From the NCBI GenBank assembly GCA_030248225.1, contig JASANE010001803.1, forward strand, positions 1 through 64,000: a DNA stretch of 64,000 bases, read 5' to 3'. The notes below the pieces were generated by a model. That model worked only from the letters and a program-made list of their open reading frames with translations, was not told the origin of the DNA and did not search any database. This document shows positions 36,611-51,184 of the stretch, piece by piece (position 1 is the first letter of the stretch; each line of letters opens with the position of its first letter). This stretch comes from Trileptium ribeirensis. Taxonomy: Eukaryota > Nematoda > Enoplea > Enoplida > Thoracostomopsidae. Made by a program: the position numbers and the translations under genes.

Positions 36611-37058
36611 TGTTAGCAACTATGTTGGATTGCAAGGCAATGGCGAACACACTATATACGTGACACTGTAATTGTTGTGGTTTGTACGTATTACGTCTGA
36701 GATGAGAAGTTGAGCTCCAATGGAGCCAAGCTGGCATCGATTTTTTCAAGCCGAGCCGAGCGTGAGCCGTCAACCTCCGAACCAGCAAACCGACCTGCTA
36801 ACATAGTACAACACAATATCAAAAGAGTAGTATATAATGCTACAGGTGGAAGCTGAATTTTACATTGAATTTCTGAAAATCAAACTGCCCGGAATACTGA
36901 AACGATTCTCCCAAAGCGTCCATGAAATCAGCATTACAAAAAAATTAATCACAAAGTACCGTTTGAACCACATTTCGCGCTTGCCCTTTAATTGTGACAA
37001 CATTTTGCCATACCCGTAAGTGTAAATGATATTTATGTGCAATTTCTAACTCAACGTC

Positions 37059-37110
37059 AGTAGATAGAAAATACGGGTTTTGCCCCCCCATATGTGGTGG
37101 TGAGTGGGGT
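37059..37110 (+). repeat. Left terminal inverted repeat of the Maverick
   Basis: 52 bases starting AGTAGATAGAAAATACGGGT, with a run of seven C, ending GTGAGTGGGGT. It pairs with 51016-51072. Beyond the GTGAGTGGGGT block the two ends diverge, so the visible repeat is short for a Maverick. Confidence 0.9.
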
Positions 37111-38027
37111 AGACTGATGGTCTTCGAAATTGAATTTCTAAGCACAACTCCTACTGACAATTGTATGGGTGTATATGTAAAATATATGGACGGTGTATAA
37201 TATATATATACGTGACAATTTCAAACGCAGTAGCCGACAAATATTTAACCTTAATTAATATAGTATGAGTTTAGATAGATGCGTCCAAGTCGAGATGTGT
37301 TCATATCGTTTCATCAGTATCCAATGTTGCTAGGTAACAAGACAGTTACATATTATGTGTTCCAGCATAACTGAACCATTTTAATGCATAATTTAGAAGC
37401 AGTCTGTTCGTAGTTATGTTTAAATGATAATTTCCAAAATAGCAGATTAATGGCATTAATATAATCTACACTAATCAGTGGTAAAAACGTACAAGGGTTA
37501 GTTGTAGCTGGAAAAACTACATCTGTCTTTAATTTTCCACTGTTTAGAATATAAACAAAAAACGCTATATCATCAGTATGCTTTATGAGGTGGTTTAACA
37601 AAATATACCTCAGAGATAATCACTTATTTAAATTTCTAATCGTTAGATGGATTCACTCTCTCCAGCACAATGTATTTTGCTGTGTAAGGTATAGTATAAT
37701 TTGTTATGCTGATATCTCAACCACACCACGATACAAAACATGCCAAGGAATCAATTCATTTATAGGTTTTATTTCAATCCGCTTTATAAGCTCCATTTCG
37801 GTTGATACTTTTGTATGATTACTTACATTTGACAATTATGAATGCCATACAAGATATATACCATACAAGACATACATATACACTTACACGTAGGTCCTTT
37901 AGCACTCTTCCAATATCTCCACATTCATATTACTTGATAATACTTACAGTTGCTATACAATTATTTACATATTACTGTACATGTATTTATATTAATTACA
38001 TTTATTTACATTAACTATAATATTACT

Positions 38028-38538
38028 TTAATAATTGTTAATTAGTTCAATAAATTTGGTTCCGTCGTGGTTCATGCGTTCCACCTTGAAGCGTCGATGC
38101 TAAAAAATAATATACAATTACTAAGAAGTAGCTGACTTTTAAGTTAACATTTAGCAAATACAATTATAATTCGGTTATAATATATACTACCAAATATGGA
38201 ATTATTTAACAAATAAATTATACCTACCCTTCGCACCTCCTTGTGAATTCGCGATCGAGTTCTGCTCGAGAGGAGACCACGAATCCTGTCTCTACCAGGT
38301 TCCCCTTATCGATCAGAACGACACGTTGTTCGAAGGTGTTGTAATAACCACGAACACCCACAGGAACGTGGAAAGTCGCGAAGAAGACTCTTCGTGTATA
38401 ACCTCCAAAACGACTGGTTATTGTTATAGCATATTCCATAACAGCTATAACAGTGAACACTGAGTTTAGAAACCAGCTCCGGTTTCCTTCAGAAGGCTGC
38501 CTATGACCCTCCACAAAATGGTTGGACAACCCAATCAT
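38028..38538 (-). CDS. Maverick minus-strand gene, possibly with one intron
   Basis: The ATG at 38538-38536 opens a 104-codon frame with protein-like composition (GGYTRRVFFATFHVPVGVRGYYNTF, not a family I know). It stops at 38224, right at a good donor, GTAGGT (38227 leftwards). A candidate acceptor TATTTTTTAG lies 5' of 38099, after which HRRFKVERMNHDG... runs to a TAA at 38028. The second exon fits the exon-1 end only in the neighbouring frame, so either a one-base shift exists near 38240 or the splice is not real. Function unknown. Confidence 0.4.
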
Positions 38539-38989
38539 TTGTGCAAAGCGAGTGCAGAAAAACCAAAAAATTGCAAATCGATCCGTAACGATATCAAAGC
38601 AGCAAAAATGTAAACTCAGCGTTGAATACTGTTTAATGATAATGAAACCCCACCGTTATCCTAATATTAATTACCCCATCTGGCTATTTTTATACATGGA
38701 ATTCGTGGTTAACTGGGATTTTTACCTTATTTTTTACAAAAATGGTAATGTCCTCCCTATACGATACACTATTATAAGATTTACCTTAACATTATCTTGT
38801 GTATTTAAGTTAACTACATTTTGGAATTTTATCAAGTGTAACTTTTTTTAATCCCTATTTTTTCAATCTAGAACATTTAAATTTGGTATATAAGCTGATA
38901 AACTTCGGGTTATTCATTAATAACATTTTAACTAACAGTTTAATTTACCACTATTAATAAATATATGTATTCATCCATAGCTAATTTAT

Positions 38990-39815
38990 TTTATTAAAAT
39001 TTGTATAGGTTATATAGCTAATAGTTTATAATTTAATCGTTAATAACTTTTAACTAGTAGTGGAAATGTTAGCAAAATTGGTAACTATACGTTTTCTGTT
39101 ATACTGTGTTCATTATTGATATCTAAATAAAGCAAAATTACATAGCTATTAAGTTATGGTTGCATAGTTAATAATTGTTATAGTTCAATAATTTTTAACC
39201 AATAGTCATAAAGTAATAAAAATTCATACCTATAGGTTTCTGCTACGCTGGTTTCATTTCTTTTGTTTTAAATAAGATAGGTGACATAGCTAATAAGTTA
39301 TAATTACATAGCTGATAATTTATAAGTTAATAACTTTTTAAATAACAGTCACAAAGTAGTAAATATTTATACTTATAGGTTTTCTGATATTCTGATTTCA
39401 TTTCTACTATTTAAATAAAGTTAAGTTACATAGCTAATAAGTTTTAATTACATAGCTAATAATTTGTCAACTAATGGTCATAAAGTAAAAAAAATCATAA
39501 TTATGGGTTTTCTGATACACTGATTTCATTTTTGCTATTTAAATAAAGTTAAGTTACATAGCTAATAAGCTACCTAATAATTTATACTTAAATAACTTTT
39601 CAACTAATAGTCATAAAGTAGTAAAAATTTATATCTTTAGGTTTTGTGATACGCTGATTTCATTTTTGCTCGTTAAATAAAGTTAAGTTACGTAGCTAAT
39701 AAGCTATAATTACATAGTTAGTAATTTATACATTAATAACTTTTAAACTAATGGTTGAAAGGTTGCAAAAGTTCGCACCGCTGGTTTATTATACTGTGAT
39801 GTTTCCATTTCAATG
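38990..39815 (+). repeat. AT-rich tandem array upstream of the polymerase gene
   Basis: About six imperfect units of 115-135 bases carry TACATAGCTAATAAGTTATAATTAC, TAATAACTTTT, AATAGTCATAAAGTAGTAAAAATT and TAGGTTTTCTGAT(A)CTGATTTCATTT words. It ends about 90 bases before the polymerase start. Its role is not known; a replication or promoter role is only a possibility. Confidence 0.8.
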
Positions 39816-39891
39816 AGTTTTGAACCATCTGCTATATTTTAATCAAACATAATGTTTGATCATAACCCTTTTTAAGAACTATTTTAGAATC

Positions 39892-39901
39892 TCTTAAAAA
39901 G
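39892..39901 (+). promoter_or_regulatory. Maverick gene box TCTTAAAAAG before polymerase
   Basis: Ends one base before the polymerase ATG (39903). It belongs to the recurrent TCTTAAAAAGG family described with the other Maverick genes. Confidence 0.5.
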
Positions 39902-39902
39902 A

Positions 39903-42900
39903 ATGGCACTTCAATGTAATAAATGTAACAAGAGTTTCACTAGACGTGATCATCTTATACGTCATATTCACACAATTCACACTATGCAAGTAAATTTGTA
40001 TGAGCAGTGTGGTAAAGTGTTTTCACGACACGGCGCACTTATTACACACCAAAAGAAACATTGTAAAGCGCGTCAACATGATACCACCGCAACCATTGTG
40101 GAAGCTCAGGCATCCACCTCAACGAATATGGAACCCCAACCATCAACGTCAACAACAACTCATGTTGATCATCTTGACCAGTTACAACAGATGGCGCAGG
40201 AGATCGTCGATCAACACCAACGATCGTCCATTATCGAGCAATGTGATTCCATCACGCTGCGACAATGGATCAAGGCGTTGAAAGGGTATCTCCTCAGTTA
40301 CTATCTGCTTCCCAAACAGCATATCAGCGATTTATCCGTTTTCCTGGCGCCATCGCGTCAGATGCTGGTGCGATTGATCTACACCCATCTCAGTCGTGGT
40401 GTCAAACTTTGGATATCCGTCAAATGTGTGCTGCGCAAACTAGACGGCACACAGATATCAGCGCACTTCAACACCAAATCCCGCGCAATCTTGCGCGTAG
40501 ACAATATCTACATCGAGCTCACCGACTTCTTCAACGAGTTGGCGAAGAAACTGGACGACTTCCAGCGACTAGGATCCGGATGGGTGCTTCAAGAGGTTGA
40601 GCATGCAGATGTGCACATCAGCAAATATCAAACCCTGGATGCATCATCCTATGTCGAGCTACCAACATCAATCCGCAATAAATATGCGGTCCTAAACATT
40701 CAAAACAGTGACACTAAATGCTTTATATGGTCGGTATTGGCGGCATTGCATCCAATGAATCGTAATCAACATGCTGAGAGGGTATCTAACTACGAACCAT
40801 ATATTAACGAACTTGATATGAGCGGTATTGAATACACTGTTAAACTAAAGGACATACCCCGATTCGAGAGGCGAAAAAACATTGCTTTTAATGTTTATGG
40901 ATTGAAAGATGGTGTAATTTACCCTCTGTATATATCGAAATCCTTTCATTCACAATACATCCATCTGCTCCTGTATAAAGAACATTACTGTCTGGTTCGC
41001 AGTCTGGATTCGCCACTACATAACCAGCGTCGAGATAAGAGCAAAAAGTATTTTTGCGATAAATGCCTCGTCCCATGCTACAGTAAAGCTAAACGGGATG
41101 AGCATTTACAACGCTGTCGATATGATCAACCATCCCGAATCCAAACACCTCCATCCAATTCAACGCTTCAATTCACAAACATTCAACGAATGCAACGATC
41201 TCCATATGTTGTATATGCGGATTTCCAGTACATTCTCGAAAAGGTCGTCACTTGTGAACCATCAGCATCAACACCAAATGTGGTTATGGGCTTATTGACT
41301 GTTTTGGTTGTTGCAACGATAAAGTCCAAATTGGCGAACCTCATATATATCGCGGAGACGATACCGTTACACATTTTCTTAATAATGTAATTGAATTATC
41401 GGAACAATTTCAAAAGTGTCCAACTAAACCTCTCAATCTAACAAATAATGAACAATGTGAATTCGATAATACTTTAGAATGTTATATAAGTAATAATTCC
41501 ATGGATCCTGACGATAAAGCTAGGGACCACTGTCATTTTTGTGGTCGATATCGAGGCGCTGCTCACGCACAATGTAATATTGGGTATAGACTCAATCGCG
41601 ACGTAACTGTATTATTTCATAATTTACGTCGATACGACGGACACCTCATAATGCAAGAACTAGGTATAATATGCAAGCAAAAGGGATTAGAAATTGAATG
41701 CATCGCGAAAGGTATGGAGGATTATATGACATTCTCCATCAAACGCAAAGCAAAGAAACAGTTCAATGACGAAGAAGATGACGACGACACTTGCTGGGAT
41801 GAAAACGTCGATGGTATTGATTTCATCCTCGGTAACGATGATACAGCTGAAGATGAAGTTGGATGGAAAATTCGATTCATAGACACCATACAATTTCTTC
41901 CATCATCTCTTCAAACGCTGGTCGACAATTTAAAAAAGACTGGAGTTAATCAATTCCAAGCAATGAAGCGTATTTTCGGAAAGAAACACGATTTAATGCT
42001 GCGTAAGGGTGTTTACCCTTACGAATATATGGACTCCATCGATCGCTTCAACGAAACAATTCTTCCTCCCCAAAAAGACTTTTACTCTAGTCTTAGTGAA
42101 AGCAATATCAGCGATCAAGATTGTCAACAAGCACAAACAGTTTGGCGAGAAATGAATGTTCACACCCTTGGTCAATATCACGATCTTTACCTCAAAACCG
42201 ATATTCTACTGCTCCGTGACGTGTTCGTGAATTTCAGAGTATTTTGTCTCGAAAAATTCCGACTAGATCCGGCTCACTACATCACCCTCCCCAGCTTCGC
42301 ATGGGACGCTTGTCGGAAGACAGGCGTCAAGCTTGATCTCATATCCGATACGGATATGTACAGTTTCTTCGAAGATGGAATTCGCGGTGGTGTATCTGTA
42401 ATCTCCCATCGGTATGCATAAGCAAACAACCCATACGTTGACGGTTACAAGGCTGAAGAACTCATCAACTATATAATGTACCTCGACGCAAACAATTTAT
42501 ATGGGTGGTCGATGGTACAAAAAATCCCCTGTAATAAGTTCAAGTGGCTTTCCCAAACCCAAATCAATTCAATCGATTGGTATTCGATCAACCGAAATGG
42601 TGATACTGGATATATTTTGGAAGTCGATTTGCGCTATCCATATCACCTCCACAATAGTCACAATGATTACCCTGTAGCTCCAGAACGTTTAAAGATAAGT
42701 GATACAATGTTGACCGCATATTGCACCTCGATCAAACAAGATCGTTCTGCACCAGTTGAAAAACTGGTTCCCAACTTAAACGATAAACAATATTATAAAG
42801 TGCATATCCGCAACCTACAACAATATCTTTCCCTCGGTTTAGAACTTCACAAGGTCCATCGTGCTATATCCTTCAAACAATCTAAATGGATGGAACCTTA

Positions 42901-43575
42901 TATAATGTTTAATACCGAGATGATAAAGAAGGCAAATAGTGACTTTCAGAAAGACTTGTATAAGCTTCTGAACAATGCTGTATTTGGCAAAACCATTTAG
43001 AATGTGCGAGCTTATATAAATAATAAACTTATAACCAACTAATGGAAATTTGAAAAGTTGGTGGCGAACCCCCGATACTCCATGTCATCAATATTCAACG
43101 AGAACCTGGTTGCGGTTAAAATGCACCGCAAAACTGTTAAACTGTGTAAACCCATTTATGTTGGGTGTACGGTTTTGGAACTATCAAAGTCGCCATCGAG
43201 GAATTTGTTGGATTGCGATCGAAGATGTACAGTATAAAGTGTGGTGGAGTTGAAAAGAAACGGGCAAAGGGGATAAAGAAGGGTGTTGTGAAGAAAGACA
43301 TTCGTCACCGAGACTATTACAACATTTTGTTCAGTGTTAGTAACATGAAACATAAAATGAATATGATTCGCAATGATAAACACGTGTTGAATACAGTGAC
43401 ACTTAATAAGACGAGCTTATCTGCATATGATGATAAGATATATATATTGGATGATGGAATCAGTTCTTATGCTTACGTACATTATAAAGTGTATGGTGTT
43501 AGCGATGAAGATTTTACTAAATTGTTGAGTGATATTTCTGATGATGATCTTATGCATATTGATATTGATGTTTAA
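39903..43575 (+). pseudogene. Protein-primed family B DNA polymerase of the Maverick
   Basis: Replicates the element by protein priming in this family. An N-terminal C2H2 finger (C5, C8, H21, H26) is followed by a second, degenerate one. The exonuclease region has VVYADFQ (D440; the usual Glu is Gln442), FHNLRRYDGHL (near 41614) and YHDLYLKTD (near 42176). Palm motif A is YLDANNLYGW (42479) and motif B KLLNNAVFGK (near 42963). The thumb-side GLRSKMYS (43210) and the C-terminus to 43575 are present. Breaks: frameshift near 41290; in-frame TAA 42419, TAG 42998 and TAA 43040; and a join near 43188 that removes the segment carrying motif C (YxDTD-type). Catalysis would be lost. Confidence 0.92.
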
Positions 43576-43580
43576 TAAAG

Positions 43581-43590
43581 TCTTAAAAAC
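43581..43590 (+). promoter_or_regulatory. Maverick gene box TCTTAAAAAC before integrase
   Basis: Lies three bases before an ATG at 43593, which is out of frame by one with the integrase body, suggesting a small indel at the integrase start. Confidence 0.45.
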
Positions 43591-43592
43591 AA

Positions 43593-44661
43593 ATGTGTTT
43601 ATTGATAGGGTTTAAGAATAGATTCTAAACTTAAAGATATATACTACAACCCTACAAGTATTGCAGGTTTTTCAACTGCTCCTAAACTTTATAGAGAAGC
43701 TAAACAACGAGGTTATAAAGTAAAACTCGGGGAAGTACAAGATTGGTTACGTGGTCAGGAAACATATACTTTACATAAACCTAGAAAATTAAGATTTAAG
43801 CGTAGACGTACTGTTATTAAATGTTTAAATGATTTATTTCAGGCCGATTTAGCTGATATGAACTTGTCATCATATAATGATGGTATAAAATATTTACTTG
43901 TTGTTATTGACTGCTTTTCTAAATATGCTTGGGTTATACCTGTTAAGAACAAGACAGCTTATACTACTCTAAATACATTAAAATCTGTCTTTGAGCAAGT
44001 TAAACCTCAAAATTTTCAAACAGATAATGGTAAAGAGGTTGTAAATAACCTGTTATATGATTATTTCAAGGAAAATGGTATAACCGTTTATACTGCTAAG
44101 CATAAGGAAACAAAAGCAAGTATTGCCGAACGTTTTATACGTACTTTGAATTCAAAAATTTATAAATATTTAACAGCAAACAATTCCCGTAGATATATTG
44201 ATAATCTTCAATCATTTGTACAAAGTTATAACAATACAGAAAACAGTTATGGTTTTACACCTTCAAAGGTTGATAATGAGGATGAAATTCGGGAAAAGTT
44301 ATTTCCAGCGCAAGATGTGGATGTTCGATATAAATTTCAACTAGGCGATATTGTACGTGTTTGCATTGAACGGCTTCCTTTTGAACGTGCATTTAACCAG
44401 TTGTGGTCACGTGAAGTGTTTACAATAAGTAAACAACTACCATTCAATCCTCCAGTTTAAGAGCTTGAAGGTGCAAATAAGGAAACTATATTGGGAAGAT
44501 TTTATAAGCAAGAGCTGCAAAACGTTAAAGTAGTGGATGATTCATATAAAATTGAGAAAATTATACGCAAACGCAAGACCAAAAGGGGTATAGAGTACCT
44601 TGTAAAGTGGTTTGGATACCCTAAATCAATGAATTCGTGGGTACATGAAAAGGATTTATAA
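43593..44661 (+). pseudogene. Maverick integrase (DDE) with C-terminal chromodomain
   Basis: The retroviral-type integrase inserts the element. The frame is open from 43609; the likely ATG at 43593 is one base out of frame. An N-terminal KLYREAKQRGYKV region leads into the core: Asp at 43846 (ADLADM), Asp at 44023 (TDNGKE) and Glu at 44128 (IAERF), with 34 residues between the last two. A TAA at 44458 interrupts the frame in the linker. The same frame then encodes a chromodomain (IEKIIRKRK, YLVKWFGYP, NSWV) to the final TAA at 44659. The core residues are intact, so the single nonsense codon and the start are the visible defects. Chromodomains are common on Maverick and chromovirus integrases and guide site choice. 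Confidence 0.92.
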
Positions 44662-44669
44662 CCGCTGTA

Positions 44670-44935
44670 GGGGTACAACATACGGCTACATAGTAGTAAA
44701 TGTAAGGATATATGGGTACAATACGTACCCGTATGGTGCAGAATATAGATACACAATGGTAAATGTAGGGGGATATATGGGTACAATAGGTACCCGTAGG
44801 GGTACAGAATAGGGGTACAACAGGAGTATACAGTGGTAAATGTAGGGGATATAAGGGTATAATACGTACCCGTAGGGGTACAGAATAGGGTTACACAGGG
44901 TACAAAATAGGGGAACACAGGGGTAAAATATGTTG
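44670..44935 (+). repeat. GGGTACA-rich minisatellite after integrase
   Basis: About four 60-70 bp units contain GGGGATATATGGGTACAATA and CGTACCCGTAGGGGTACAGAATA. The block contains GTACCC/GGGTAC palindromes. It sits between the integrase stop and the ATPase box, with no coding sense. Confidence 0.75.
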
Positions 44936-44945
44936 GTGCCAAAGT

Positions 44946-44956
44946 TCTTAAAAAGG
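44946..44956 (+). promoter_or_regulatory. Maverick gene box TCTTAAAAAGG before ATPase
   Basis: Perfect match to the shared box, 104 bases before the ATPase ATG, the longest spacing in the set. Confidence 0.5.
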
Positions 44957-45060
44957 TTTAATCATGTAATCCATGATAATTATGGATCATGTATGTAACA
45001 AGTGTGAACAATCATACTTGTCATCAACATTTACATAGACATAAGAAAACTTGTTGAGCT

Positions 45061-45702
45061 ATGTCATCATTTGAAAGCTGTGATAATATACTTTTACCTT
45101 TAGAATTACCGTTCACATGTGTTGTAACTGGTCAAACAGGTATTGGAAAAACGCAGTGGATTTATAGATTACTTAAACACATGTACTTTGATGAAAAGGT
45201 GGGGAAAATTTTATACTGTTACAGTATTTTTCAAGATATCTACGGTACAATGTTGAGAGAAATACCCAACTTTGAACTACATGAAGTACCCTCTGAATTT
45301 CCCACAGACACAGGACACGTTTTATGTGTATTGGACGATTTAATGATTGAGGCCTCAAATTATAAAAAGCTTGCAGTAGCATTTTCCCGTATGCGTCATA
45401 ATAAGTTAAGCACAATTTATGTTATACAGAATTTATATCATGAAGGTAAATACATGCGAACAATAACTAGGAACGTACAGTATATGGTTCTATTTCCCAA
45501 TTTCCGTGATCAGTCAATGATAAATACCCTGGGAAGGCAAATGTGGCCTTCAAAACCAGACTTTCTTTGAAGCGCATTTGAGCAAGCAACAAAGGAACCA
45601 TATGGTTATCTATTTCTTGATCTGAAACCAGCTATAGAGAGTGTGCTCAGGGTGAGACAATGTATTTTTCCTGATGACAGTCAGATGTTTGTTTATTCTT
45701 AA
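45061..45702 (+). pseudogene. Maverick FtsK/HerA-type packaging ATPase
   Basis: This ATPase pumps DNA into capsids in related viruses. Walker A is GQTGIGKT starting at residue 24 and Walker B is VLCVLDDL (D92, D93). The conserved C-terminal part (EPYGYLFLDL) follows an in-frame TGA at 45568-45570 and ends at TAA 45700-45702. Apart from the TGA the gene looks complete at about 213 residues. The stop overlaps the box of the next gene, showing tight packing. Confidence 0.88.
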
Positions 45703-45707
45703 AAAGG
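45697..45707 (+). promoter_or_regulatory. Maverick gene box TCTTAAAAAGG before small gene 1
   Basis: Perfect box overlapping the ATPase stop, 22 bases before the ATG at 45730. It continues TTTAAT as at 44957. Confidence 0.5.
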
Positions 45708-45729
45708 TTTAATTTTAGATTTATTAAAT

Positions 45730-45918
45730 ATGTCTCGAACGGTTGAACGTAATCCAGCGGCACTACAGTTTCTGGAGAGATCATCAGCTAAAGTTACATC
45801 TGTTGTAATTAAAGTTGCACCTCAGTCTTTACTGAACACATTTGCAGAAATTGCATATAATATGATACAAAACACCAAAACCAAGAGGAAAGTTCTTAAA
45901 AGTATAGCAAGCATTTGA
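45730..45918 (+). CDS. Small unknown Maverick gene 1 (62 aa)
   Basis: An intact frame preceded by a box, starting MSRTVERNPAALQFL and ending in a basic tail (KTKRKVLKSIASI). It is helical by composition, with an amphipathic centre. No family recognised. Its position between ATPase and the capsid cluster suggests a virion or assembly role; this is inference only. Confidence 0.55.
   Translation: MSRTVERNPAALQFLERSSAKVTSVVIKVAPQSLLNTFAEIAYNMIQNTKTKRKVLKSIASI
45894..45902 (+). promoter_or_regulatory. Maverick gene box TCTTAAAAG before small gene 2
   Basis: A shorter form of the box inside the end of small gene 1, 39 bases before an ATG at 45942. Confidence 0.35.
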
Positions 45919-45941
45919 TTAATTATTTTAATAAACATTAT

Positions 45942-46335
45942 GGCGCGTAAGATGGCTTGGTACCGGTTAGTTGGTTGGATATAATTAAGCGTGGTGGATT
46001 ACAAGATAAAGAACCGATAAGAAATGAAGTGACTGTATATGAAACTGGAGAAAAACCAGATTTGTCGCTTATGTTTCCTAAAAATTTACGATCTAAAGCT
46101 AATTTTAATGTTAAACAATATTAAAGATTTAAAACTAAATGATAATAATAATGTAATTTATCCGGATAAGACTGTGGGTTCCAATATTTTTGATTTAATA
46201 AAGTATTTTGTCTCGGATGTCAACTTTTCACCCCCACGACGTTTAGATTCAGATAAGTTTGATACACTTCTTAGAGGAGTTCCTTTGTCAGCTTTTAGAA
46301 GAGGCAGGAAAACTAAAGTGGCTGAGCAGAAATCT
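45942..46335 (+). pseudogene. Small unknown Maverick gene 2, broken
   Basis: The ATG at 45942 gives MARKMAWYRLVGWI then a stop. A protein-like reading continues in other frames: IIKRGGLQDKEPIRNE... to KQY (stop near 46120), then DKTVGSNIFDLIKYFVSD and RLDSDKFDTLLRGVPLSAF up to about 46290. The last part resembles, from memory, a short conserved protein of many Mavericks with an SNI-DL-(x)n-P...F...L...VP pattern. At least two frame changes make it inactive. Function unknown. Confidence 0.5.
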
Positions 46336-46394
46336 AAATGGAGAACTTTATGGGGTAAACCAACCAATCATATTCATGTGGGGTATTTACTAAT

Positions 46395-46404
46395 ATATAA
46401 AAGG
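46395..46404 (+). promoter_or_regulatory. Variant box ATATAAAAGG before NADAR gene
   Basis: It reads ATATAAAAGGTTCAC, close to TCTTAAAAAGGTTTAA elsewhere but with a more classical TATA core, 31 bases before the ATG at 46436. Confidence 0.35.
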
Positions 46405-46435
46405 TTCACAAACATGGATATCATCATTATTGAAA

Positions 46436-46948
46436 ATGGATTATACAAAGTATTGTGTTAGCACTGACGGGAAACCACTTGTTTTGTTCCGATCTGGATG
46501 GAGTTTATTTAGTAATTTTAATATTGCTAAAATAACTATTAACGGAGTAACCTACAACTGCGTTGAACAATGGTATCAAAGCGAAAAGGTTCGTTACTTC
46601 AACGATGAAATCACATATCATCATATTATGAACTCTTACAAACCTTCAATACACAAGCGACTTGGACAACAAATATCAAATTTCGATATTGCGGAATGAA
46701 TTGCACACGACCGCGCTGTAAACTTTATGAAAGCGTGGATGAAAGCGAAATTTCATCAACTACCTCACCTACGAGCTGCAGTAATGGGAACCGAAAATGC
46801 GATAATAGCGAAAGGGTCGGAATGAGACTTCTACTGGGTAATTGGAAAAAGCGTGTTCGATGTAAAAAGTCGAGACATGAGCGAATGGAAGGGACTAAAC
46901 AAGTTGGGTGGGTTATGGATGGAGATTCGAGACGAAAAAAAACGATAA
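46436..46948 (+). pseudogene. NADAR-domain gene (YbiA-like) in the Maverick
   Basis: The NADAR family hydrolyses the N-glycosidic bond of NAD-derived or ADP-ribosylated substrates; some members reverse ADP-ribosylation. Visible features are WSLFSNF near residues 20-26, NGVTYNCVEQWYQSEK with the acidic residue expected at the active site, then KRLGQQISNFDIAE. After an in-frame TGA at 46697-46699 the same frame continues with IAHDRAVNFMKAWMKAKF. A second TGA at 46823-46825 is followed by DFYWVIGKS and NKLGGLWMEIRD, ending at TAA 46946. The whole domain length (about 170 codons) is present. The first TGA sits where family members usually have Trp. The overlapping frame 46696-46950 is a shadow. 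Confidence 0.8.
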
Positions 46949-46953
46949 CAAAT

Positions 46954-47409
46954 ATGACAATAACATCAGACATTGGATGCAACGTTGATTTGTTATATTT
47001 ATCTTGTGTACTTGATAATTTTGACTTTGATATTTTACGATTTAATGGTGGAATATGGAAATTCAAACAGAGGGGAACGATTTTACTGTTTTTCAATGGA
47101 AAGCTAGTAGTAGTGGGGGTGAGTTCAGAGGATGAAGCAAAACAAATTTTGCGCATAGTTAACGAAAAATTAAACAAGCTGGGATATTCATGCATTCGAA
47201 AATTTGACGTACAACTTAAAAATGTTGCTGGAATGTTGAAATGTGGATTTAACTTAAATTTACCTTTCATCTATGAAAGTCTGAGATCCAAATACACTGT
47301 AATGTATGAAACTGAATTACATAATAGTATGAAACTTAAGATTGAGAAGGGTGTGGGTTTGATTTATGTGAGTTGGGAATGTAGTTACAACCTGGTTGTA
47401 AGTGTATAA
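46954..47409 (+). CDS. TATA-binding-protein-like gene in the Maverick
   Basis: The ATG at 46954, six bases after the NADAR stop, opens 151 codons. The order matches the TBP saddle. N-terminal lobe: IGCNVDL, then RF, then TILLFFNGKLVVVG, SSEDEA and a helix NEKLNKLGY. Second lobe: FDVQLKNVAG, then F(N)LNL, YETEL, an IEKGVG strand and LIYVS. Eukaryotic TBP cores have about 180 residues; here the end is short. Just after LIYVS the neighbouring frame resembles the expected GKVVLTG strand better, so a one-base shift near 47370 is likely. TBPs bind and bend the TATA box; viral TBP-like proteins are known in African swine fever virus and mimivirus. It may recognise the boxes found before Maverick genes (inference). 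Confidence 0.75.
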   Translation: MTITSDIGCNVDLLYLSCVLDNFDFDILRFNGGIWKFKQRGTILLFFNGKLVVVGVSSEDEAKQILRIVNEKLNKLGYSCIRKFDVQLKNVAGMLKCGFNLNLPFIYESLRSKYTVMYETELHNSMKLKIEKGVGLIYVSWECSYNLVVSV

Positions 47410-47445
47410 ATGATTTCTATTTGTCTTGTAATACTGTATATAATA

Positions 47446-47455
47446 TCCTTAAAAG
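47446..47455 (+). promoter_or_regulatory. Maverick gene box TCCTTAAAAG before minor capsid
   Basis: 27 bases before the ATG at 47482. It continues ACTTTAAT. Confidence 0.4.
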
Positions 47456-47481
47456 ACTTTAATAAAATGTAATCAACAATC

Positions 47482-48101
47482 ATGGAAGTTGTAGTTGTTT
47501 GCAATCTGAAGAACCGGTTGTTGAGTTTCCGACAGCATTTTGCGCTACAAAAGTTAAAGTACTGGATGTTCAACTTCCCACCAAATACAAAAATATTGAG
47601 GGTGGTATTGTTGAATATTTCACAAATAAATCTTGGAAACGATATACAGTTGGGAAAGACTACTACAATATTAACAATTTGTTATCTTACCTAAACACAT
47701 TTAGTTAAGACATTGAGTTTACAGTTGACCCCATCTGTGATCGTGTCAGTGTATATATCTTATGGGTGACAGAGATTAAGATATTTCCGGAAATACAACA
47801 ATTATTTGGAATCAACGCTTTACACCTGAAAAACGGTAAACATGTTGGTAACAAATGTGTCAACATGCAACATAACAAACCCACGTTTATAATGAGTTCT
47901 TTTGTGAAAGAACGAATAGTAAACGGAAGACATAAACCACTACTACACGTAATTTCATCTAATGTGAAAAATACAATGAGCCTAGAGTAAAACAGTTGCA
48001 TGTTAAAGTTTTCCCGATTTGATGTGCTTGATCCAGAAGTTCAAACTGTTGAGTTTTTTCCAAATACAAAGATGATATTAAGATTATGGTTTAGTTCTTA
48101 A
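47482..48101 (+). pseudogene. Maverick minor capsid (penton-like) protein
   Basis: The ATG at 47482 starts a short frame that passes to the next one within about 20 codons. The main frame (open from about 47484) reads VLDVQLPTKYKNIEGGIVEY, KSWKRYTVGKDYYNI and NLLSYLNTF, and ends in TVEFFPNTKMILRLWFSS. In the Maverick penton family, LP...W.VGL.E.-type strands come first and an F..G.v.v.L.F end is usual. Two TAA codons interrupt it at 47706 and 47988, and the last TAA (48099) overlaps the next box. It would form capsid vertices as a single jelly roll. Placement immediately before the major capsid gene supports the call. Confidence 0.6.
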
Positions 48102-48106
48102 AAAGG
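48096..48106 (+). promoter_or_regulatory. Maverick gene box TCTTAAAAAGG before basic peptide
   Basis: Perfect box overlapping the minor capsid stop, 16 bases before the ATG at 48123. Confidence 0.5.
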
Positions 48107-48122
48107 ATAAATAGTTTCAAAA

Positions 48123-48260
48123 ATGTTACCTCTATGTTTCAATTCGAGAAAGCTTCTAAAAGCTATGCCAATCATTAAGAAGAAGAAAAGTCTTAAAAAG
48201 CATCGTAAACAAGCAAAGAAAAAGAAAAATGTCAATCGTATGCGGAGTCGAAAAACCTAA
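48123..48260 (+). CDS. Small basic peptide (45 aa) overlapping the capsid start
   Basis: An intact frame with about 20 Lys/Arg in 45 residues, including IIKKKKSLKKHRKQAKKKKN. The stop (48258-48260) lies 32 bases inside the major capsid gene in another frame. Such a peptide could condense DNA in the virion like adenovirus core peptides, or act as a nuclear signal; this is inference. The Lys-rich coding also carries the next gene's box. Confidence 0.5.
   Translation: MLPLCFNSRKLLKAMPIIKKKKSLKKHRKQAKKKKNVNRMRSRKT
48191..48200 (+). promoter_or_regulatory. Maverick gene box TCTTAAAAAG before major capsid
   Basis: Lies within the basic-peptide frame, 28 bases before the capsid ATG at 48229. Confidence 0.45.
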
Positions 48261-49515
48261 TTGGCAGGGTGATAAGTACCCTGTTCAAGACTCAATCATG
48301 TCAACACAAATGATTGAAGTCGCTTGTGAAAGAACTTTACCGAGCACTGATACAGATGACTCGTTTCGTTATAAAATTGGTGAAAGTGCATTTGATTTGA
48401 TTGATTTATCTGAAATATTTGTATATATTAAATTTCAAATAGTGAAAGGTGATGGTAAGGAGATTAAAGATACAACTCTCAAATTTGCACCATGCAATAT
48501 GTTCGGGTATGGACTCTTTTTATCGGTTGAGATGAAAATAAATGGAGAACCGATAACCTACAACCAAAAACACTACCCCTGGATGACATACATATTGTAT
48601 ATGTTACATATTAGTGAGGAACAAAGAAAACAATATTTAGCAGGATGTCTTTACAAACCTGATCAGACATATATGTTTGATGATCTAAAAGATAATGTAG
48701 GTTCCATTTATAGAAACGCGTTGACTACGGTGTCTCAAAAATGTGAGCTTTATTTTCCACTAATTATCGATGTACATTTAACTCCTAAATATCTACCACC
48801 AAAAACAAGGTTTGAATTTAAATTTACGCGAAATACACCATCTCTAATACTGCTGCATTAACCAGCTAATAAATTTCAAATTCGTATCAATGATTTCAAA
48901 GTCGATATACCTAAAGCACGATTAACAAAAGAAGCTCTTGAAATTCAAAATAGAATTGGAGCAGTTATACTTCCTGCAATAAGATATAAATTATATACAT
49001 TGTCTGTAAATAAAGGTTTACAAAACGTAGATTGTACAATTTTTGCTGGTGTGTTACCTCGAAGAATATATATTTGGGGAATAACACAGGAAGCGTACAC
49101 AGGTGCAGCAAAATTAAACTTGTTTAAGCTAAGTCTACCAGATATGAATAGCTTTACAGTATTTATCAATGATGACAGATACCCTTATAATATCTCTTTA
49201 CCGTGTAAAGCTGGGAATGATATGAGACTGTTTTATAATACATTATACGCGTTAAATGGTAGAACTGAAAATTTGGAACTAACTGAAGTTGGGTTTAGAT
49301 ACGGTGTAGGATATCAAATATTTTGTATTGATTTAAGTAAAGATCACAGTAGTGATTGTAATTATATTTCAAACCCATCAGATGGACAGGTAAGACTATC
49401 AATAGATTTTGTAGATGAATTGAAACATGCAATTGTGATATTTGCAATGGGAGAGTTTACCTCTGAACTACATATTAACGAAAAAAGGGAAGTATTTTGG
49501 AATAGAATGTCTTAA
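48229..49515 (+). pseudogene. Maverick major capsid protein (double jelly roll)
   Basis: The ATG at 48229 starts a frame of 428 sense positions interrupted once by TAA at 48859-48861. Residue order fits the F54H12.2-like Maverick capsid family: a DS-IMST-IE start, FDLIDLSEIFVYIKF, FGYGLFLSVEMKINGEPI, YPWMTYILYMLHIS, LPPKTRFEFKFTR (before the stop), then FQIRINDF and IPKARLT. The second part continues with LPRRIYIWGITQEAYTGA, SFTVFINDDRYP, YQIFCIDLS and VRLSIDF. Two jelly rolls build hexons of an icosahedral virion. Length is normal for the family. The single nonsense codon falls at the join of the two halves. Confidence 0.9.
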
Positions 49516-49519
49516 AAGG
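49510..49519 (+). promoter_or_regulatory. Maverick gene box TCTTAAAAGG before membrane protein
   Basis: Overlaps the major capsid stop codon, 24 bases before the ATG at 49544. Confidence 0.5.
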
Positions 49520-49543
49520 TTTGAAGATACTTTTGTACCAAGC

Positions 49544-49882
49544 ATGGATAAAAAACCTTTTATTGCGTTATATTCTACATTACTTATAACAATTGTTGGG
49601 GAGACGGTTATATTACTCTTAAGTGTAAAGCGTACCGATATATGTAAAATCCAAAATTGTACGAGAACTGTGTGTTTCGAAGACTGGACAAACGGTTCAA
49701 GTGAAAAGTGGAACCCATCAAACGGTTACAATATTATATGGATTAATAAAACATCTTCAAACCTTCATTTTAACGTTCTATTGAAACCACCGCAAGGTCT
49801 TAAATGGAGGGCACAGATGGTTTATCTATTTGATATGATTCCCTTGGCAGGGATGAAATGTTTTACTAAAAAATCATTATAA
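49544..49882 (+). CDS. Small Maverick membrane or secreted protein (112 aa)
   Basis: The ATG at 49544 follows a box; a longer reading from 49442 only overlaps the capsid gene. Residues 5-27 form one hydrophobic segment (IALYSTLLITIVGETVILLL), after which come four or five cysteines and N-glycosylation sequons (NCT, NGS, NKT). It is likely a signal-anchor protein with the C-terminal part outside. Family not recognised; it is far shorter than the fusion proteins known from nematode Mavericks. Intact. Confidence 0.5.
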   Translation: MDKKPFIALYSTLLITIVGETVILLLSVKRTDICKIQNCTRTVCFEDWTNGSSEKWNPSNGYNIIWINKTSSNLHFNVLLKPPQGLKWRAQMVYLFDMIPLAGMKCFTKKSL

Positions 49883-49894
49883 AAATGTACAACA

Positions 49895-50611
49895 TTAATA
49901 CCTTTCACTGTAAGATTTCAATTTTTCATGAATACAGTTATACAGTTTTTCAGTGTATTTGATGTTCAACATTTTACAACCATCAGCAATGTCCTGTTTA
50001 CAGCAGCGGGATGAACACATACATCCACCATCTCGCGCGTGTTGTCGCTGCCCAGGATCTTCGTAGTAACACGCGTCGCATTCATCTGTGTACCGTTTGT
50101 TGAGTTTTTGAATCACCCTTTCCACGTGATCATCCATTTGTTTCGCTTGTTGGAACTGGATACGTTCAGAAATTCGATCCCAAACCAACCTTTGAACCTG
50201 CATTATATCAATGCAGATAATCGTCTTGAGCACGCTCCATAATTCGTTTTCGATGATAAGGTGTGGATCTTCACATTGATCGAAATCGATTCGCTCGTAG
50301 ACCATGTCCGCCAGTCTCTGAGCATCGGATGATTGTTCGAGATCATTAGTGAGTTGATCTTCAACGTTGTCGTTAATACCAACGGACTGAATATCGGTGG
50401 TGAATGCGTTGACGTTGTCTTTAGTGAGATAACTATCGAATTGATCACTAGTGTTAAATACATCGAGAAGGCTATTGAACCAGTCATCATTGAATTTGGT
50501 GAGGTCCTCGACGTTGTCCCGGAATAGTGTTGGTGAAAATGTTGCTGAAGGAAGCTCCATTTCAGTAAACAAATCCATATCAATAAACAAATCTAACGAC
50601 TGAGAAGTCAT
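49895..50611 (-). CDS. Intact 238-aa unknown Maverick gene, minus strand
   Basis: The ATG at 50611 is preceded (on this strand) by ACTTATATATGAAC, a TATA-like sequence, not by the TCTTAAAAAGG box. The N-terminal 100 residues are strongly acidic with bulky hydrophobics (LFIDMDLFTEMELP, NDDWFNSLLDVF), like an activation domain. The middle is helical (NELWSVLKTIICID, RLVWDRISERIQF). The C-terminal 60 residues have eight cysteines (CDACYY, CMCSSRCC, C, C), a possible metal-binding cluster. No family recognised. It is convergent with the capsid cluster, ending 13 bases from the membrane-protein stop, and has no stop or shift although most neighbours do. Confidence 0.7.
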   Translation of the reverse strand: MTSQSLDLFIDMDLFTEMELPSATFSPTLFRDNVEDLTKFNDDWFNSLLDVFNTSDQFDSYLTKDNVNAFTTDIQSVGINDNVEDQLTNDLEQSSDAQRLADMVYERIDFDQCEDPHLIIENELWSVLKTIICIDIMQVQRLVWDRISERIQFQQAKQMDDHVERVIQKLNKRYTDECDACYYEDPGQRQHARDGGCMCSSRCCKQDIADGCKMLNIKYTEKLYNCIHEKLKSYSERY

Positions 50612-50664
50612 AACTGATGAAAACGCGATGAAGTTAGTTCATATATAAGTTGGAATCATCTGTT

Positions 50665-50875
50665 CACCATATGTCACCCCACATAAAAACCCTATATATA
50701 TAACCCCACCTATATATTATATACCTCCACAAAGTACCACACATATATATTATATGCCCCCACACATATATTATATACCCCCACACAAGCATTATATACC
50801 CCAATATGAATCCCATATATATATTACATACCCCCACAAAGAACCCCACATATATACCCCACACAAAAAATTACA
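50665..50875. repeat. ATATATTATATACCCCCACA simple repeat
   Basis: Seven or eight units of 25-30 bases, (CCCCACAC)ATATATTATATACC with variation, directly upstream of the minus-strand unknown gene and near the right Maverick end. The frames across it are artefacts. Confidence 0.85.
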
Positions 50876-51015
50876 TACTTAATATTAGAATTTTTAGTAA
50901 GAATAATTTTTTTGATAAGCTTATCTGAGTGTCACCCATGGTCGTAATTGCTGCTCAAAAATAATGTGTTGTAGAAACCTCGCCACCACTTGTTCATGTG
51001 GGGGCGCATATATCC

Positions 51016-51072
51016 ACCCCACTCACTATTACATATGTGGGGGGGGGGCAAAACCCGTATTTTCTATCTACT
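51016..51072 (-). repeat. Right terminal inverted repeat of the Maverick
   Basis: Its reverse complement starts AGTAGATAGAAAATACGGGT, with a run of ten C (seven at the left end), and ends GTGAGTGGGGT. The AACGTC that follows (51073-51078) is the target duplication. Confidence 0.9.
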
Positions 51073-51184
51073 AACGTCTTTCTAGATAAAGAGCCTACAG
51101 AGTGAGGTATGATTATAATATATCAACTTTATGCTTAATTTCCGTGTGTTTGGGCCCAATCATACCGTATATGCGACACTGAAC

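Follow-up and report, generated by a model that had tools for sequence, protein, structure and literature searches.

A TATA-binding protein homologue in a Maverick lineage of a nematode genome and a candidate promoter word that follows its clade

The TATA-binding protein (TBP) is among the most conserved proteins of eukaryotes and, to our knowledge, few TBPs found in nature have an altered DNA code. The locus considered here, which lies in a stretch of 64,000 nucleotides from the nematode Trileptium ribeirensis (the whole of the DNA analysed, hereafter the window), raises the question of whether a small virus-like element can own such a protein and, if so, which genes that protein would serve. 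A preliminary description of the window had pointed to an open reading frame (ORF) resembling TBP, had placed it inside a Maverick element, between a NADAR gene and the minor capsid gene, and had proposed that the element carried its own promoter-recognition factor.

A search for inverted repeats of 40 or more bases found none, and a search for shorter ones yielded the terminal repeats of the element. Because both repeats are flanked by the same six-base target duplication, AACGTC (37053-37058 and 51073-51078), the element can be delimited to about 14.0 kb (Table 1). Its plus-strand genes run in the order DNA polymerase B (polB), integrase, ATPase, presumed protease, NADAR, TBP, minor capsid (penton) and major capsid (MCP); the presumed protease, penton and MCP ORFs have no Pfam match, and their order is as expected for a Maverick. 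The matches of PF03175 to pieces of polB are of E=1.2e-7 and 3.6e-5, and no RNA polymerase gene was recognised among the element ORFs scanned with Pfam. The copy in the window is decayed: polB is spread over at least four frames, the end of TBP lobe 2 is lost, and NADAR, penton and MCP are interrupted by stops, so that the TBP gene here is the decayed form of one that other copies keep open. Open TBP and MCP frames are present at other places in the genome, the MCP of near relatives occupying open frames of 451 aa. Between the left end of the element and polB lies a tandem repeat with a unit of ~130-144 bases (39074-39748). A tandem array of a directional word around TAGGGGTACAA occupies 44753-44925, in the gap between integrase and ATPase, and similar arrays are found in five of the loci compared below (L009, L011, L012, L017 and L025). 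At the right end, a minus-strand ORF (49895-50638) with no Pfam match recurs in 8 of 20 such loci.

Table 1. Coordinates of the Maverick element, its genes and the motif sites in the window
Feature	Position	Strand	Basis and remarks
Maverick element, about 14.0 kb	37059..51072	+	inverted repeats near both ends and 6-bp duplication
Left terminal inverted repeat	37059..37113	.	inverted-repeat search
Protein-primed-type DNA polymerase B region	39888..43575	+	at least 4 separate frames; PF03175 in 2/4 pieces scanned
Integrase (rve)	43609..44460	+	PF00665 E=4.9e-13
CTTAAAAAG site before ATPase	44947..44955	+	motif scan
Packaging ATPase	45058..45570	+	PF04665 Pox_A32 E=1.6e-5
CTTAAAAAG site, gap between ATPase and presumed protease	45698..45706	+	motif scan
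CTTAAAAG site before presumed protease	45895..45902	+	motif scan
Conserved ORF, presumed protease by position only	46033..46461	+	recurs in other loci; no Pfam match
Canonical TATATAAA, 42 nt before NADAR ATG	46394..46401	+	sequence
NADAR gene, stop-interrupted	46436..46949	+	PF08719 E=1.6e-10 on 46394-46699
TBP homologue	46954..47409	+	PF00352, PDB TBPs, AlphaFold/Foldseek, alignment A1; lobe 1 complete, lobe 2 short after ~residue 138
CTTAAAAG site before penton region	47448..47455	+	motif scan; at same place in 17/17 main-clade loci
Minor capsid (penton) region, two frames, named by position	47466..47990	+	conserved in 16/20 loci; no trusted Pfam match
CTTAAAAAG site before basic ORF and MCP	48097..48105	+	motif scan
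Major capsid (MCP) region, two frames, named by position	48160..49515	+	conserved in 19/20 loci; short basic ORF upstream
CTTAAAAAG site before MCP	48192..48200	+	motif scan; within 160 nt upstream in 16/17 main-clade loci
CTTAAAAG site, end of MCP region, before ORF 49439-49882	49511..49518	+	motif scan
Right terminal inverted repeat	51013..51072	.	inverted-repeat search

The 456 bases of the candidate gene encode a 151-residue protein (P0001) that is a genuine TBP homologue. The segments quoted in the preliminary description, from IGCNVDL to YETEL, all occur in this translation and in the order claimed. The profile search that it had proposed is significant, with PF00352 matching P0001 in two stretches at E=4.9e-15 (55.6 bits, cut-off 22.9), a score far beyond chance. 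NCBIfam TBP models match from 8e-13, yet under their curated cut-offs, solved (PDB) TBPs are found by sequence search from E=9.7e-14, and PF00352 matches relatives from other loci at E=6.7e-32 (L015) and E=9.6e-30 (L024). The proposal that the ORF follows both lobes of TBP agrees with the two matched stretches, but it must be narrowed for the window copy, whose second lobe is incomplete: in alignment A1 it diverges after ~residue 138, and the 14 other sequences continue to a full second lobe. Judged by sequence, the Maverick TBP is a bare TBP core of roughly 165-180 residues. As for its neighbours, NADAR is found directly upstream as described, and the minor capsid gene downstream is recognised by position, without a Pfam match.

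Structure prediction, also proposed as a check, recovers the TBP fold. An AlphaFold2 model of P0001, based on an alignment of 50 proteins from a profile A1 search of a protein collection, has a mean pLDDT of 87.6, with residues 142-151 below 50 and lobe 2 incomplete. Compared with the PDB by Foldseek, this model gave 44 matches at E<=0.001 with TM-scores of 0.76-0.87 by query length, and all 44 are TBP chains or entries, judged by titles and sequence search; its best viral structure matches include nucleocytovirus TBPs. A full-length relative, P0002, is modelled with a pLDDT of 91.2 and a TM-score of 0.82-0.88 to human TBP. The intact Maverick protein is thus predicted to be a two-lobed TBP saddle.

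The gene is not confined to the window. The genome searched (687 Mb, 20,229 contigs) gave at least 150 listed matches to the TBP family profile, scored from 975 candidates, where one gene may give two rows, one per lobe. With P0001 as query, the best 150 of 676 candidates, the window copy included, all have E<=2.2e-42, and 107 of these 150 are free of stops within the match. Twenty loci were fetched from the TBP family matches, spread over scores and frame lengths; since they were picked by their TBP match, its presence is given by the selection. The TBP gene lies between NADAR and the capsid genes, NADAR being matched in 19 of the 20 loci, MCP in 19 and penton in 16, so that the same gene recurs at the same place in other elements, an outcome that the preliminary description had named as support. 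NADAR, whose domain is linked to ADP-ribose, is in this sense a regular neighbour of TBP, although it is interrupted in the window copy. One locus (L018) starts at a contig end, no penton match was found in three loci of what is called below the sister clade, and L012 has polB, NADAR and TBP and no capsid match within its stretch. In a search that started from MCP, 70 of the first 101 rows (best of at least 150) have a listed TBP match 0.6-2.3 kb upstream. The remaining 31 have no TBP match among the matches listed, so some elements may lack TBP.

Purifying selection on the Maverick TBP is indicated by sequence comparison: dN/dS is 0.10-0.26 in eight TBP pairs with dS of 0.12-0.26, pairs that share loci and are not independent. 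Outside these pairs, dN/dS is 0.54 for L015/L016 (nine changes) and 0.12 for L017/L018 (three changes), and L026/L028, which are nearly identical, differ by two changes, both non-synonymous. The best explanation of these data is that the ORF in the window is a decayed copy of a TBP gene which a Maverick lineage carries as a standard part of its gene complement.

The host has a canonical TBP gene of its own (L029), separate from the elements and split by introns, which falls with cellular TBPs in a tree containing 17 Maverick rows of 21 copies (L009, L014, L016 and L018 left out). The Maverick rows form a main clade of 14 rows (support 100/95) and a sister clade made of L024, L026, L028 and the database proteins P0002 and P0003 (support 100/100). 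The two clades may derive from one capture; their grouping has a support of 90/85 and encloses four database proteins on long branches. P0002 and P0003 were among 149 proteins found with profile A1 in the protein collection (best 120 of 149 listed); they come from ENA records and may even stem from the same species as the window. Against the same collection, P0001 alone and the first MCP piece gave no matches at the thresholds used, and no relative turned up in IMG/VR when it was scanned with P0001, alignment A1, P0002 and the ATPase sequence.

A recurrent CTTAAAAAG was first seen by reading the upstream regions of the loci. Over 21 sequences (201,672 bases), CTTAAAA(R)G occurs 125 times in sense and 6 times in antisense, against an expectation of 9.0 under a first-order Markov model, the highest of 40 draws giving 16. 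The 17 main-clade loci (the 21 sequences minus L012 and three sister loci) hold 123 sense and 5 antisense sites, five of the sense sites belonging to one tandem array in L025. At 91 of the 123 sense sites, an ORF of 30 or more codons opens with its ATG within 45 nt, compared with 1469 of 5100 random positions, and the distance from motif to ATG is mostly 32-40 nt. When no word was preset, CTTAAAA ranked first among the 7-mers of the 60 nt upstream of 150 ORF starts (52 vs 7.5 expected). The three sister loci have CTTAAAA(R)G once in sense and once in antisense; they carry CATRAAAAG instead, with 29 sense and 0 antisense sites, 22 of them with an ATG within 45 nt, and their top 7-mers are ACATGAA and CATGAAA (13 of 31 starts each, 1.6 expected). 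CATRAAAAG is found 6 times in sense and once in antisense in the main loci, and the 48 kb of window flanks hold CTTAAAA(R)G 0 times on the plus and 2 times on the minus strand, and CATRAAAAG 2 and 0 times. Both clade words correspond to a TATA box (TATAAAARG) with its first bases altered. Strand bias alone was set aside as a way of ranking words, as it places tandem-repeat words on top rather than promoter words, namely TAGGGGTA for the main loci and, for one locus of the sister clade, AATATCAA; TAGGGGTA occurs 83 times in sense and twice in antisense, in 12 of 17 main loci.

The split between the words was then confronted with 16 further loci, fetched after the words were fixed and assigned by best TBP match to the main (13) or sister (3) clade. 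CTTAAAA(R)G is present in sense in 12 of the 13 main loci (29 sites, 0 antisense) and in none of the three sister loci, and CATRAAAAG in none of the main and all three sister loci (7 sites, 0 antisense). Fifteen of the 16 therefore obey the split, and L042 has neither word. These loci are partly close kin of the discovery set, 11 of 16 being 78-98% identical in TBP to a discovery locus, two of the three sister loci among them at 96-98%. Five are more distant, namely L031 (46%), L033, L039 and L043 (54-56%) and L042 (67%), and four of the five carry the word. L042 and L012 belong to a TBP lineage that lacks both promoter words; at the TBP end, where other copies have the motif, the leucine codon of L012 is TTA. 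The link between clade and motif, as read from these sequences, rests on two clades and few sister loci.

Not all genes carry the motif alike. Counted within 160 nt upstream of the matched start, in loci with enough upstream sequence and L012 left aside, CTTAAAA(R)G precedes penton in 17/17, MCP in 16/17, ATPase in 11/15 and integrase in 7/11 loci; the counts are 5/16 for NADAR, 4/17 for TBP and 1/16 for the presumed protease, which in other loci has the motif further upstream than 160 nt. NADAR is preceded by a canonical TATATAAR in 11 of 16 main loci; for the six remaining genes, taken as one set, the count is 1 of 93. For the main clade, this distribution suggests that NADAR-TBP could be started by the host TBP and the structural genes by the element TBP. 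The division between early and late genes is not clean, since NADAR has CTTAAAA(R)G in 5/16 loci, and no such division is seen in the sister loci, where CATRAAAAG precedes integrase in 3/3, ATPase in 3/3, protease in 2/2, NADAR in 3/3, MCP in 3/3 and TBP in 0/2. At the start of polB, the window has a divergent pair of CTTAAAAAG sites, at 39876 (-) and 39893 (+), the leftward gene being not clearly recognised. The stretch from the motif to the matched ATPase start seems, by eye, to encode a C2H2-like finger, for example in L020 and L015, perhaps as an N-terminal extension of the ATPase.

The residues through which TBP would grip such boxes were compared in 21 TBP rows (16 main, 5 sister), taking as given the yeast TBP numbering of the kinking residues and the lobe presumed to contact each base step. 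The first kinking phenylalanine is F in 21/21 rows; the second is F in 16/16 main and W in 5/5 sister rows; the third is H in 12, Y in 3 and N in 1 of the 16 main rows and F in 5/5 sister rows; and the fourth is F in 5/5 sister rows and in 10 main rows, the other 6 having Y. The proline after the third phenylalanine is N in main rows and is kept in 4/5 sister rows. The two clades thus differ in the C-lobe residues responsible for the kink at the first TATA step, and those for the downstream half of the box are largely kept. The TATA box is reported to be kinked between bases 1-2 and 7-8 (PMC10005294), and the proline that follows the third phenylalanine reportedly makes T the preferred base at position 1 (PMC12529657). 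The main clade, in which the third phenylalanine and the proline are lost, has CT at positions 1-2, and the sister word has CA. A one-residue rule based on the proline was dropped because sister TBPs keep the proline and yet their word begins with C. Of the TFIIB stirrup glutamates (YE.E), both are kept in 16/16 main rows, whereas sister rows keep the first in 2/5 and the second in 5/5. A genome-wide search for TFIIB (PF00382) gave a single match, so TFIIB is not a gene that the elements have in many copies, and the host TFIIB would be the natural partner of the element TBP.

These observations probably reflect an early viral TBP by which host RNA polymerase II (Pol II) is brought to late genes with a variant TATA box, much as in the vTBP system of herpesviruses. 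NADAR, with TBP directly behind it, would be expressed early from its canonical TATA box by the host TBP; the element TBP would then bind the variant box (CTTAAAARG for the main clade, CATRAAAAG for its sister), which lies some 35 nt upstream of the ATG in penton, MCP, ATPase, integrase and further genes. Its conserved YE.E stirrup would recruit host TFIIB and Pol II, and the element would in this way have a private class of late promoters poorly served by the host TBP. We infer the reading of the motif by TBP, the early/late order and this recruitment from sequence. The earlier proposal of a promoter-recognition factor encoded by the element itself is strengthened by a directional TATA-like motif whose sequence tracks the TBP clade. 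Several findings speak against the model, namely the TBP-bearing L042 without either word, the low counts before TBP itself and the presumed protease, the overlap of many sites with coding frames (see below), and, in the sister clade, the kept proline beside a word in C and the frequent loss of the first stirrup glutamate. A stronger proposition, that of a complete self-specified promoter code in which two clades of one genome use mutually exclusive words and the DNA change falls at the base step gripped by the altered lobe, is held only tentatively, at a little short of an even chance; if true, a small virus-like element would have re-targeted the specificity of TBP in nature, and more than once.

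Other readings of the same data have to be weighed. The homologue could be a competitor that ties up TFIIB, TFIIA or TAFs of the host, or sits on its TATA boxes, and thereby shuts down host transcription, CTTAAAARG being read by another factor of the element or the host. Altered C-lobe kinking residues could indeed mean weak or changed DNA binding, and TRF2, a TBP relative minus an intercalating phenylalanine, does not bind TATA boxes according to PMC10005294; but a motif that is TATA-like in sequence and distance and changes with the TBP clade, together with the kept downstream-half residues, makes this role unlikely. The motif could also merely follow from an LK/HK peptide that is conserved where genes end, or act in the RNA as a junction signal for processing or termination. 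It does sit at gene junctions, and 78 of the 123 main-clade sites coincide with leucine-lysine codons in frame with an ORF of 40 or more codons; yet 33 fall in no such ORF and 12 in another frame, and a different but still TATA-like word stands before the same genes in the sister clade. Moreover, where the motif meets the end of TBP, the leucine is encoded by CTT in 16/16 motif-bearing copies listed, although CTT makes up 18% of leucine codons, so that the DNA word itself seems constrained. An origin in peptide or RNA is, on these grounds, quite unlikely.

That the ORF is a chance resemblance, or a captured host-TBP pseudogene functionless in the element, might be suspected from the decay of the window copy. 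This reading is contradicted by the profile and fold matches to TBP, by the at least 150 relatives in the genome and the many stop-free copies among the best P0001 matches, by the dN/dS values and by the grouping of the host TBP elsewhere in the tree, and we regard it as extremely improbable. Under the preferred reading, in which the element TBP serves late promoters, a 14-kb virus-like element appears to carry a TBP and its own DNA word, in two versions and with at least 150 relatives in one genome. Such a system allows a direct test of how TBP specificity evolves and suggests how Mavericks time capsid production.

The element resembles known Mavericks/Polintons in its polB, rve integrase, ATPase, capsid region, inverted repeats and 6-bp duplication, and it differs from them in the added NADAR-TBP pair and in a promoter word linked to the TBP clade. 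Literature searches joining both terms, in which subscription papers were mostly outside the scope, found no report of TBP in Maverick/Polinton elements, and TBP or TATA terms are absent from PMC11071308, PMC11071296 and PMC10120064; the novelty of the finding is limited to these searches. With cellular TBP and TBP-related factors, the Maverick TBPs share the two-lobed saddle, E188 and most kinking residues, whereas the C-lobe residues are changed and the host gene is separate and intron-split. Laboratory TBP mutants accept TGTAAA or TCTAAA, substitutions in the second repeat altering the TATA box that is accepted (PMC10005294); these mutants were engineered, while in the Mavericks the TBP is natural and its change appears to have gone along with a change of its DNA word. 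The TBP fold is also found in DNA viruses, such as nucleocytoviruses (Heterosigma akashiwo virus, Ectocarpus virus) and mirusviruses; these are far larger, and the top viral structure matches have only 9-19% identity. TBP is reported from 59% of mirusvirus genomes (PMC10132985) and is more sporadic in viral elements of an alga (PMC10675990). The closest functional likeness is to the vTBPs of beta- and gammaherpesviruses, KSHV ORF24 and its homologues, which reportedly combine a TBP-like protein of viral origin, late genes with a variant TATA box (TATTWAA for ORF24; PMC12529657) and host Pol II (PMC12529657; PMC7498053), lateness being a proposal for the Maverick genes. ORF24 is described there as a large, multi-domain protein that acts with five other viral factors and binds the Pol II CTD itself, whereas the Maverick TBP is a bare TBP core with CTTAAAARG and CATRAAAAG as its putative boxes. 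The Maverick protein is thus not of the ORF24 type and, by analogy, may work like the herpesvirus vTBP system without being a member of it, as a small-element parallel to the viral-TBP strategy of herpesviruses.
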